64,000 nucleotides of DNA from Cytophagaceae bacterium (GTDB lineage Bacteria > Bacteroidota > Bacteroidia > Cytophagales > Cytophagaceae): NCBI GenBank assembly GCA_025455005.1, contig JALONH010000006.1, forward strand, positions 1 to 64,000, read 5' to 3'. Numbering within the stretch: the stretch's first letter is position 1; each line of letters opens with the position of its first letter. The position numbers were made by a program, and so were the translations under genes. Shown in pieces: positions 87-14,077 of this stretch. Under the pieces are notes generated by a model that was not told the DNA's origin, made no database searches, and worked only from the letters and a program-made list of their open reading frames with translations.

Positions 87-114
87 TCAAAGAACGTTTA
101 TCAGTTTCCTGATA
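87..114 (-). promoter_or_regulatory. boxB/boxA-like antitermination leader element
   Basis: Read on the minus strand, a perfect 6-bp hairpin (TATCAG, loop GAAA, CTGATA; 114 down to 99) is followed by GTTCTTTGA (95 down to 87). GTTCTTTGA resembles the boxA sequence of Bacteroidota rRNA leaders and spacers. The hairpin-then-boxA order is that of rRNA leader antitermination sites. It lies downstream of three leftward promoters. That an rRNA operon follows is inference, because no 16S start is present in the window. Confidence 0.5.
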
Positions 115-179
115 GAGAGATCACATCTTGATCTTATTACTTTTATTTATTTCCCTTTCTTTATTTCTGAACGGGGATG

Positions 180-211
180 CAAAAGTGAAGTTTTTTTATT
201 TTACTTCCAAA
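180..211 (-). promoter_or_regulatory. Leftward promoter, most downstream of three
   Basis: On the minus strand: -33 box TTTG (211-208), a 20-nt spacer, then CACTTTTG (187-180), close to the Bacteroidota primary-sigma consensus TTTG-N19/20-TAnnTTTG. It has the same geometry as the copies at 278-309 and 404-435. Confidence 0.6.
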
Positions 212-277
212 TTTGCAGTGAAAAATTTTAAAGTTTTTTATTTAAGTTTCTCACTTCTTATTTTCAGAACGGGGAGG

Positions 278-309
278 CAAAATTGAACTTTATTATTTTA
301 ACAAACAAG
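278..309 (-). promoter_or_regulatory. Leftward promoter, middle of three
   Basis: On the minus strand: CTTG (309-306), a 20-nt spacer, CAATTTTG (285-278). The downstream sequence (a C-rich block then GTTC) matches that of the module at 180-211, which supports duplication of the whole module. Confidence 0.55.
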
Positions 310-403
310 TAAAACTTGATTATTTTTGAAATTTTCAACTTTTCAATGCTTAAAGAACGAATCCTTTTCGACAACAATTTAACTGTTTTTGCGATTGGGA
401 TGA

Positions 404-435
404 CAAAAGTAAGGGTTTCATTTTAAACCACCAAA
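404..435 (-). promoter_or_regulatory. Leftward promoter, most upstream of three
   Basis: On the minus strand: TTTG (435-432), a 20-nt spacer, TACTTTTG (411-404). This is a full match to the Bacteroidota consensus. It begins 13 nt past the stop codon of the DUF2480 gene, which reads in the same direction, so some read-through transcription is also possible. Confidence 0.65.
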
Positions 436-447
436 TTTAATATTCGA

Positions 448-957
448 TTATTTTAATTTCTTGTAGATAGGCACCGTACTACACGGCTCTCCAAACATTA
501 TACTTTGAGCTACCCCAATCAACAATTCTGTAATTTCAACATACGCACTAACAGGCACTTCCACCTTACTGCACCCCTTTATTACAACCTTTTTATCCAA
601 CCATTTTTCGACTTCTAAACCCTGAATTATTTTTGAAAAATATTTTTCCAAAATATCTTTTTCCGAGCAGAATTGTACACTTTTTACCATTCCTTTCACC
701 TTTGAAACAATCAACATATAAGCCCAAGTAGGTATAATAGCATCCGTACTACAAACTATAAATAGATGTTTTCCCGAATAAATTGTCCAATCAAATTCCT
801 TTATAAAGCCTCTAAAATCTTTTTCTCTTAAGATTAGTTCTTGAAATAAGTGCTGTTTAATATCATATACTGCATACGGCTCCTCTTCCATCCAAGCCTC
901 CATGTCAATACTAATTAAACTGCTTTGTTCTACTCGATTGATAATTTTATCTTCCAT
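448..957 (-). CDS. DUF2480 family protein
   Basis: A 169-aa protein of unknown function that I recognise as the Bacteroidota family DUF2480. The family's conserved blocks are all present: the IVCSTDAIIPTWAY segment around residues 67-80, KGCS near 127-130, and the C-terminal GEPCSTVPIYKK from residue 156. The three cysteines at 69, 129 and 159 sit in these blocks and could bind a metal or be redox active; that is inference. There is no signal peptide or membrane segment, so it is probably cytoplasmic. Its start overlaps the tsaB stop by 11 nt, making it the last gene of the rpmH-rnpA-ctpA-tauE-tsaB run, probably translationally coupled to tsaB. Confidence 0.85.
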   Translation of the reverse strand: MEDKIINRVEQSSLISIDMEAWMEEEPYAVYDIKQHLFQELILREKDFRGFIKEFDWTIYSGKHLFIVCSTDAIIPTWAYMLIVSKVKGMVKSVQFCSEKDILEKYFSKIIQGLEVEKWLDKKVVIKGCSKVEVPVSAYVEITELLIGVAQSIMFGEPCSTVPIYKKLK

Positions 958-4608: not shown

Positions 4609-4785
<177 letters not shown>

Positions 4786-4826
4786 CTATTCTTACTTTAC
4801 TTCTACCTAAATAGGAATAAGGGTTG

Positions 4827-4857
4827 CAAAGATAATAAAGCGACCTGTAATTTCAAA
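4827..4857 (-). promoter_or_regulatory. Promoter of the rpmH-rnpA operon
   Basis: On the minus strand: TTTG (4857-4854), a 19-nt spacer, TATCTTTG (4834-4827). This is a perfect match to the Bacteroidota consensus. It lies about 60 nt upstream of the rpmH start and points at it. Confidence 0.75.
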
Positions 4858-12721: not shown

Positions 12722-14077
12722 ATGAAGGTTTCTTTTCTATTTGGAATACTGTTTTGGAACACCCTGTTTGTATCACATGCACAAATGGATACAACTATGT
12801 TGTTAGAAGACAAACGTATTCAAATTGAATCGACAACAGCGGTTAATCACATGTATAATTTCAAATTTGATATAGCGGAAGCGTATTTTTTGAGTTTAAA
12901 ACAACGTTATCCGGAACATCCTATGCCTTATTTTTTAATGGCTTTAAGTAACTGGTGGAAAATGGTGCCCAGCTTGGATGACGAAAATTATACGAATGCA
13001 TTTGAATCAGAGTTTTTAGGTTATTTGGATGAAGCCATTAGTAGGGGTGAAGACATGATAGATGCTGATCAACACCCGGAGGAAGCAGCCTTTTTTTTAT
13101 GTGCAGCCTATGGATTTAAAGGCAGGTATTTTTCCGATAATAAAAGTTATGTTAAAGCAGCTTGGGCCGGTAAAAGTGCACTAAACTACTTGAATGATTT
13201 CAAGGGAAAAAGTAACCTAAGTCCGGAATTCCTCTTTGGGGAGTCTTTGTTTAATTATTATGCAGAATGGCTAAAAGAAGAGTATCCACTTTTACGTCCA
13301 ATCATTGGTCTATTTCCTAAAGGAAATAAAAAATTAGGCTTGGCACAACTCCAACAATGTGCTCGTAACTCCTTTTATACTCGAGTAGAAGCGCAAACCT
13401 ATTTAATGCATATTTACTATAACGAAGAAAATAACAGTTTGGCTGCCTATCCTTATGCTGAGTATTTGGCCACTACCTTCCCTGATAATTCCTATTTTCA
13501 AAGAACCTTTGCCAGACTTTCCTTTTCATTAGGTAAGTGGGATGTATGTGAGAAAATTTGTTATGACATTAATTACAAAGTAAACATTGGTATGCCCGGT
13601 TATGAAGAGGCGCATACCGGAAGATATGCTTGTGCATTTTTAGGACGAATTCTTTACGAAAAAGGAGAGGAAGACAAAGCCTTGTTTTATTTAAAAAAAG
13701 CGGTAGACTTTGCGGAAAAAACTGATAAAATGTCCATGGGGTATTCTTTAATGTCGGCTCATTATATGGGGTTAGCTTGTAAGAAGAAAAAAGATAATGT
13801 TCAAGCTAAAACTTATTTTAATAAAGTTATTACCTATGCCTCTGAAAAAACGAATGCTTCAAAAGAATTTTCTGCAAATGCACATTTTGCATTGGCTGAA
13901 ATTGCGGAGCAAGAGTTAAACTATAAAGAAGCCGAACGATTGTATAAAAAAACACAACAAATAGTTCAATCCATAGAAGTAAAGAAAGACAACAAAGAAT
14001 ATTTTTATTATGTTGAGGATATGACAAAAAAATGCCAAACCGCATTCATTAGAGTACGAACTAAACAACAGAAGTAA
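12722..14077 (+). CDS. Secreted tetratricopeptide-repeat protein
   Basis: A 451-aa protein with an N-terminal signal peptide (hydrophobic 3-20, ending SHA). The rest is predicted all-helical. TPR-like units are clearest in the C-terminal half: GRILYEKGEEDKALFYLKKA, then YMGLACKKKKDNVQAKTYF and AEIAEQELNYKEAERLYKK. It probably acts as a periplasmic protein-protein scaffold. No catalytic motif is visible and I cannot name a partner. Its stop region overlaps the convergent Lrp-type gene by 17 nt, so neither gene can have a terminator outside the other's coding sequence. Confidence 0.75.
   Translation: MKVSFLFGILFWNTLFVSHAQMDTTMLLEDKRIQIESTTAVNHMYNFKFDIAEAYFLSLKQRYPEHPMPYFLMALSNWWKMVPSLDDENYTNAFESEFLGYLDEAISRGEDMIDADQHPEEAAFFLCAAYGFKGRYFSDNKSYVKAAWAGKSALNYLNDFKGKSNLSPEFLFGESLFNYYAEWLKEEYPLLRPIIGLFPKGNKKLGLAQLQQCARNSFYTRVEAQTYLMHIYYNEENNSLAAYPYAEYLATTFPDNSYFQRTFARLSFSLGKWDVCEKICYDINYKVNIGMPGYEEAHTGRYACAFLGRILYEKGEEDKALFYLKKAVDFAEKTDKMSMGYSLMSAHYMGLACKKKKDNVQAKTYFNKVITYASEKTNASKEFSANAHFALAEIAEQELNYKEAERLYKKTQQIVQSIEVKKDNKEYFYYVEDMTKKCQTAFIRVRTKQQK

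Follow-up and report, generated by a model that had tools for sequence, protein, structure and literature searches.

Three promoter-like modules pointing off the end of an assembled contig raise the question of which transcription unit they serve. The window analyzed here, the whole stretch of 64,000 nt, covers positions 1–64,000 of contig C31, and its position 1 is the end of that contig. The initial annotation had placed at this edge three tandem leftward promoters feeding an antitermination-type leader, probably that of an rRNA operon. The rRNA reading is supported by the repetition of the leader at the end of a second contig (C40), by the synteny of a DUF2480 gene with 16S genes and by the promoters that precede boxA in most leaders of relatives. 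We consider it nearly certain that the region holds the promoters and the leader of an rRNA operon, one of two or more in the genome, and that the contig end cuts it off shortly before the 16S gene; the 16S gene of this operon is not visible because the contig ends at position 1.

Three tandem promoters and the duplication of two

All three modules lie on the minus strand. Promoter P1 (435–404) has the −33 element TTTG (435–432), a spacer of N20 and the −7 box TACTTTTG (411–404). P2 (309–278) joins CTTG (309–306) across N20 to CAATTTTG (285–278) and is followed by CCTCCCCG, while P3 (211–180) joins TTTG (211–208) across N20 to CACTTTTG (187–180) and is followed by CATCCCCG. The coordinates and the spacing of exactly 20 nt proposed initially were right, and the C-rich sequence noted after the modules is found in the start region of P1, P2 and P3 alike. 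The description of the boxes was accurate in part: the TTG core is present in all three modules and the published TAnnTTTG in P1, but the −7 box of P2 and P3 is CAnnTTTG. Thus the motif expected of a Bacteroidota rRNA leader, TTG-N19/20-TAnnTTTG shortly before boxA, is found here in strict form at P1 and with CAnnTTTG at P2 and P3. The promoter consensus is established (PMC6847099; PMC7366714). With position −5 assigned to the final G of the −7 box, the rule given in PMC6847099, transcription is predicted to start at about 399 (P1), 273 (P2) and 175 (P3), compared with 397, 271 and 173 as annotated before. In the 64 kb of the window, both strands included, the exact-spacing motif TTG-N20-[TC]AnnTTTG matches four times, and three of the four matches are P1–P3. 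Shuffles of the whole window gave 2.75 ± 1.56 matches, and a hand estimate of the chance expectation is ~0.01 matches per 450 nt of one strand.

The idea that one module had been duplicated holds for P2 and P3 and finds little in P1. Outside the motifs, P2 and P3 share 44 of 74 positions, against 23.5 ± 4.0 after shuffling, and none of 5000 dinucleotide shuffles was as good; on this similarity they are clearly duplicates, and they would have arisen through duplication. The similarity of P1 to P2 (32 of 74 positions, with 99 of 5000 shuffles as good) and to P3 (33 of 74, with 46 of 5000) is slight and weakly suggests that P1 is a further copy of the same module. In the mechanism that we propose, a single leader would receive leftward transcription from three tandem promoters of the sigma-ABfr type, all of them with C-rich start regions. 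Polymerase with a sigma-ABfr-type factor would start at up to three places, and all transcripts would pass a boxB-like hairpin and then boxA.

Leaders of 16S genes in related genomes

The leader sample consisted of 95 distinct loci (35 + 60) taken from the best-ranked 16S matches. Because the Rfam 16S model detects the gene poorly, finding it in 3 of 19 genomes of the family, 16S genes were located with a 70-base 16S 5′ end instead, which was found in 7/19, 203/390 and 185/295 genomes. With boxA defined as GTTC[AT]TT[GA][AG] within 400 nt of the 16S gene, it was found in 92 of the 95 leaders with a visible 16S start and was not found in L053, L056 and L103, the last of which has just 51 nt upstream. 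The boxA expected of a Bacteroidota rRNA leader, GTTC(A/T)TTGA or a close variant, is present in the window as GTTCTTTGA at 95–87 on the minus strand. Apart from this copy at 95, the strict 9-mer is found in the window just once more, at 13506 on the minus strand; the plus strand has none. A boxA-like GTTCTTTAA between P1 and P2 (358–350, minus strand) was considered as a second module and rejected. It is probably a chance match, since only 2 of 89 leaders, one of them that of the window, have any extra boxA-like site ahead of the main boxA.

For the promoter counts, the window and C40 were added to the 92 leaders, and one duplicate and four short sequences were removed from the resulting 94, which left 89 (87 with a 16S gene). 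A promoter site was defined as TTG, N18–21 and [TC]AnnTTTG in the 450 nt before boxA. The 89 leaders contain 170 such sites, compared with 3.85 in shuffled sequence and one on the reverse strand. No site is present in six leaders, one in 31 (C40 among them), two in 20, three in 29 and four in three. A smaller set of 34 leaders gave 58 sites, with one in 450 nt far upstream and none on the reverse strand. The pattern was found again in 17 further leaders of the same order (20 given, three repeats of already-used sequence dropped), which hold 33 sites vs. 0.8 in shuffles, and in other orders of the class, where 34 leaders (40 given, six without this boxA) hold 63 sites vs. 1.5 and 23 leaders (28 given, three without this boxA and two too short) hold 52 vs. 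1.3. Since at least one promoter lies upstream of a 16S start in 81 of the 87 leaders, and two or more are present in 52 of the 89, the left edge of the window is, judged by its predicted elements, an ordinary Bacteroidia rRNA leader. Three tandem promoters are common in such leaders and nothing special, as the 29 leaders with three sites and the similar positions in L038 show. Relative to boxA, the predicted promoters of the window lie at −316, −190 and −92 and those of L038 at −319, −201 and −98, and the placement in the window is typical. Four promoter-like sites with a −33 TTG were seen in a row in L025 and L045 (within 700 nt of 16S) and in L077, L078 and L084 (within 450 nt of boxA). In L014, from another genome of the same family (G018), 23S, 5S and another 16S start follow in a row on the minus strand, two rRNA operons in tandem.

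Of 318 leader sites, P1–P3 included, 96% have a 'CC' within the 8 nt that follow the −7 box, compared with 34% of 35 other promoter-like sites from 1.3 million bases, a comparison limited by the fact that these 35 are probably mostly chance matches. G+C-rich discriminators mark the stringently controlled rRNA promoters of E. coli, and the 'CC' recalls them here as a sequence likeness alone. It is possible, though somewhat less likely than not, that only one or two of P1–P3 are active and that the others are decayed duplicates. The CAnnTTTG boxes of P2 and P3 and the CTTG of P2 point in that direction, as does the number of leaders in which a single promoter is recognizable (the 31 given above), and the −7 box of F. 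johnsoniae promoters almost always begins with T (PMC6847099). However, CAnnTTTG is found at 19 of the 318 leader sites, 17 of these besides P2 and P3 (two stand in tandem in L018), and the N20 spacing and the C-rich start region are preserved in each of the three modules. We retain three tandem promoters as the preferred reading.

The distance from boxA to 16S ranges from 60 to 379 nt and is 90–190 nt in 77 of the 87 leaders. As 95 nt are already visible between boxA and the window edge, the 16S gene most likely starts within ~150 nt beyond position 1. When 14 leaders were aligned with the window from boxA to 16S, boxA and the bases immediately before 16S were the only blocks clearly shared. 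The same alignment set the window end against the 16S start, a placement that we reject because AGGATCAGAC at that end resembles, by eye, GGGGTCAGAC of L018, which lies 43 nt before the 16S gene there.

The window shares with the known Bacteroidota rRNA leaders (sigma-ABfr, TTTG / TAnnTTTG) the promoter elements, their spacing, the position of boxA, the frequent tandem arrangement and, in some relatives, the neighbor gene, whereas CAnnTTTG at P2 and P3 and a 16S gene cut off by the contig end set it apart. Tandem rRNA promoters and boxB-boxA leaders are textbook knowledge for E. coli, and rrn P1-P2 / rrnTAC of that species likewise has promoters, then a hairpin, then boxA; the sigma recognition sites are others, and the window has GTTCTTTGA as boxA and three promoters. 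The 16S promoter of B. thetaiotaomicron is reportedly the subject of a 2009 paper by Mastropaolo et al. Among the titles and abstract openings listed in literature searches, with subscription journals mostly out of reach, none deals with tandem promoters of rRNA operons or with a boxB hairpin in Bacteroidota, which is no proof of absence. One paper hints at a feedback on rRNA synthesis in F. johnsoniae that is not the same as in E. coli (PMC8710568). As a worked example, the region shows that Bacteroidia rRNA promoters can be recognized from sequence as an often tandem TTG-N19/20-TAnnTTTG with a C-rich start region and GTTCTTTGA.

A hairpin before boxA

The promoters had been described as succeeded by a hairpin and boxA, and this order, which fits an rRNA leader, is borne out. 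Directly 5′ of boxA, where an antitermination site is expected to have a hairpin, the sequence TATCAG-GAAA-CTGATA (114–99, minus strand) is predicted to fold into a boxB-like hairpin that ends 3 nt before boxA. A second hairpin with a 6-bp stem and a 5-nt loop is predicted just upstream (134–118, minus strand), and the 40-nt stretch holding both has a fold z of −3.2. Like the lambda nut site, the window has a hairpin with a purine-rich loop (GAAA) next to boxA. In lambda, boxA comes before boxB, whereas the hairpin of the window precedes boxA, and we know of no N-like protein in these hosts. As described in PMC10250234, the E. coli rrn leader has the order boxB, boxA, boxC after promoter P2, boxA recruits NusB and NusE, and lambda N binds boxB. 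By analogy, boxA in the window would load NusB/NusE and make polymerase termination-resistant through 16S-23S-5S.

The position of the hairpin recurs in relatives. The set used here comprised 91 leaders with clean and distinct sequence, the window and C40 included, and is uneven in that three genera contribute 21, 14 and 8 of them. A perfect-stem hairpin ending 1–5 nt before boxA is found in 61 of the 91 leaders, compared with 5.2 expected from shuffles. The gap to boxA is 3 or 4 nt in 51 of these 61, which have 53 different 5′ stems. At control positions 50–150 nt further upstream, 4 to 11 perfect-stem hairpins were counted; 29 were counted at 25 nt upstream, probably owing to a second hairpin like that of the window. 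On average, the fold-energy excess is −4.2 kcal/mol at boxA; 20 nt upstream it is −2.3, and from 40 to 100 nt it lies between −0.4 and −1.2. With a looser minimum-energy criterion, a hairpin is present in 82 of the 91 leaders (32.3 expected) and in 29 of 33 genera, and the counts at offsets of 30, 60, 90 and 120 are 23, 35, 20 and 17, compared with 23.9, 21.5, 18.8 and 18.6. The C40 copy has no perfect-stem hairpin and passes the looser criterion only.

The loops are more uniform than the stems. Forty-nine of the 61 perfect-stem hairpins have a loop of 4 or 5 nt, and in 44 the loop ends in G. The pattern R-R-H-(N)-G fits 64% of the 61, from which it was itself derived, and 2.5% of 2006 hairpins from shuffles. 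Among the 17 hold-out leaders of the same order, a set in which 16 of the 20 leaders given are second copies of genomes that had been sampled before, nine have a perfect-stem hairpin (1.3 expected), and seven of the nine loops fit the pattern. In other orders, perfect-stem hairpins number 5 in 34 leaders vs. 1.4 and 3 in 24 vs. 0.8, with two of the eight loops fitting, and the looser criterion gives a moderate excess, 17 of 34 vs. 6.8 and 11 of 24 vs. 4.9.

These counts suggest that rRNA leaders of the same order carry a boxB-like element in which the stems vary and a purine-rich loop with a final G recurs. Because of the fixed place and the recurrent loop in one bacterial order, something may read the hairpin. 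We propose tentatively, and with somewhat less than even confidence, that in the order of the host (probably Cytophagales) it is a true selected boxB, its stem drifting while the R-R-H-(N)-G loop is kept, mostly 3–4 nt before boxA, which would imply a host factor that reads the loop. There is about an even chance, in our estimation, that the hairpin serves the processing or folding of the leader and is not a boxB-like signal. Deleting boxB in E. coli changes little or nothing, and no N protein of the host is known (PMC10250234); the perfect-stem hairpin is much rarer in the other orders, the looser criterion finds just 11 of 17 in the same-order hold-out against 6.5 expected, and the GAAA loop of the window itself falls outside the pattern (no fit to R-R-H-G). 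Against this, the fixed distance to boxA, the different stems and the recurrent loop within the order suggest recognition of the loop. If a loop-reading factor does exist, it would explain, in this lineage, an rrn boxB despite no known host N protein. The hairpin with its recurrent loop is the part of this locus worth following, and the survey gives a testable handle on the question of boxB.

The contig end and the DUF2480 neighborhood

The first 99 bases of the window (leader 99–1 on the minus strand) are identical to the last 99 bases of contig C40 (C31:1–99 = C40:41418–41516). The sequences upstream differ between the two contigs, and identity begins at AAACGTTCTTTGA, just before boxA. On C40, the order up to the shared stretch is fur, a STAS-domain gene, purA and a promoter TTTTG-N19-TACCTTTGCACTCCC. 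A multi-copy leader, which is usual although not necessary for rRNA, is thus present, and, as the same 99 bases end two contigs, we infer that the assembly broke on entering a repeat with two or more copies in the genome. As a DNA query, the leader matched its own genome alone among 59 genomes. 16S, 23S and 5S were not found in the assembly, which is 99.63% complete, with models that find 9, 10 and 11 of 14 control genomes; this absence is weak evidence because the models miss control genomes and because some rRNA is masked in the genomes used, 16S in at least one relative (L018). Rfam models applied to the whole window returned two tRNAs and no rRNA at gathering scores, and on positions 1–460 at a lax threshold they gave three matches, all far below the gathering score.

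Immediately upstream of the promoters lies a gene for a DUF2480 protein (448–957, minus strand; PF10652, E = 2.4e-65). In a genome of another genus of the same family (G011), two TAnnTTTG promoters, GTTCTTTAA and 16S come after a DUF2480 relative with 49% identity. A Cyclobacteriaceae MAG (L124) has DUF2480, then one promoter, boxA and a 16S gene confirmed by Rfam. In Pontibacter ruber JC213 (L176), DUF2480, three promoters, boxA and the first 16S bases, recognized by motif alone, precede a contig end, and in Mangrovivirga halotolerans (L110) the contig ends after DUF2480 and one promoter. Among the best 80 of at least 559 DUF2480 loci in the public genome collection, two have a same-strand 16S start downstream and one more ends behind the promoter. 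The other 77 have no same-strand 16S start within up to ~4 kb, so the DUF2480-rrn neighborhood is kept in only part of the group. The DUF2480 hits suggest that the host is a member of the Cytophagales.

Contig ends that share a stretch also arise at insertion sequences, and this contig has no rRNA attached to it. The repeat beyond position 1 could accordingly be a mobile element or some other transcription unit that has several copies and a leader of its own, which we regard as very improbable: relatives have the same succession of promoters, hairpin and boxA ahead of 16S, the flanking DUF2480 gene adjoins rrn in some of them, and the C31 and C40 copies have different promoters upstream of their identical part. 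We return to the rRNA operon as the preferred reading. The region belongs to a known kind, a routine rRNA operon start cut by assembly, and a contig end carrying such promoters probably marks a lost rRNA operon.

A query with TsaB against the genome contigs found no relative. Further into the window, a leftward run extends from an RNase P protein gene through S41 peptidase, TauE-like, TsaB/TsaD-like and DUF2480 genes to the rRNA leader. At 4609–4834 (minus strand), a 52-aa frame that resembles ribosomal protein L34 is preceded by a strict promoter TTG-N19-TATCTTTGCAACCC and followed by the RNase P protein gene.
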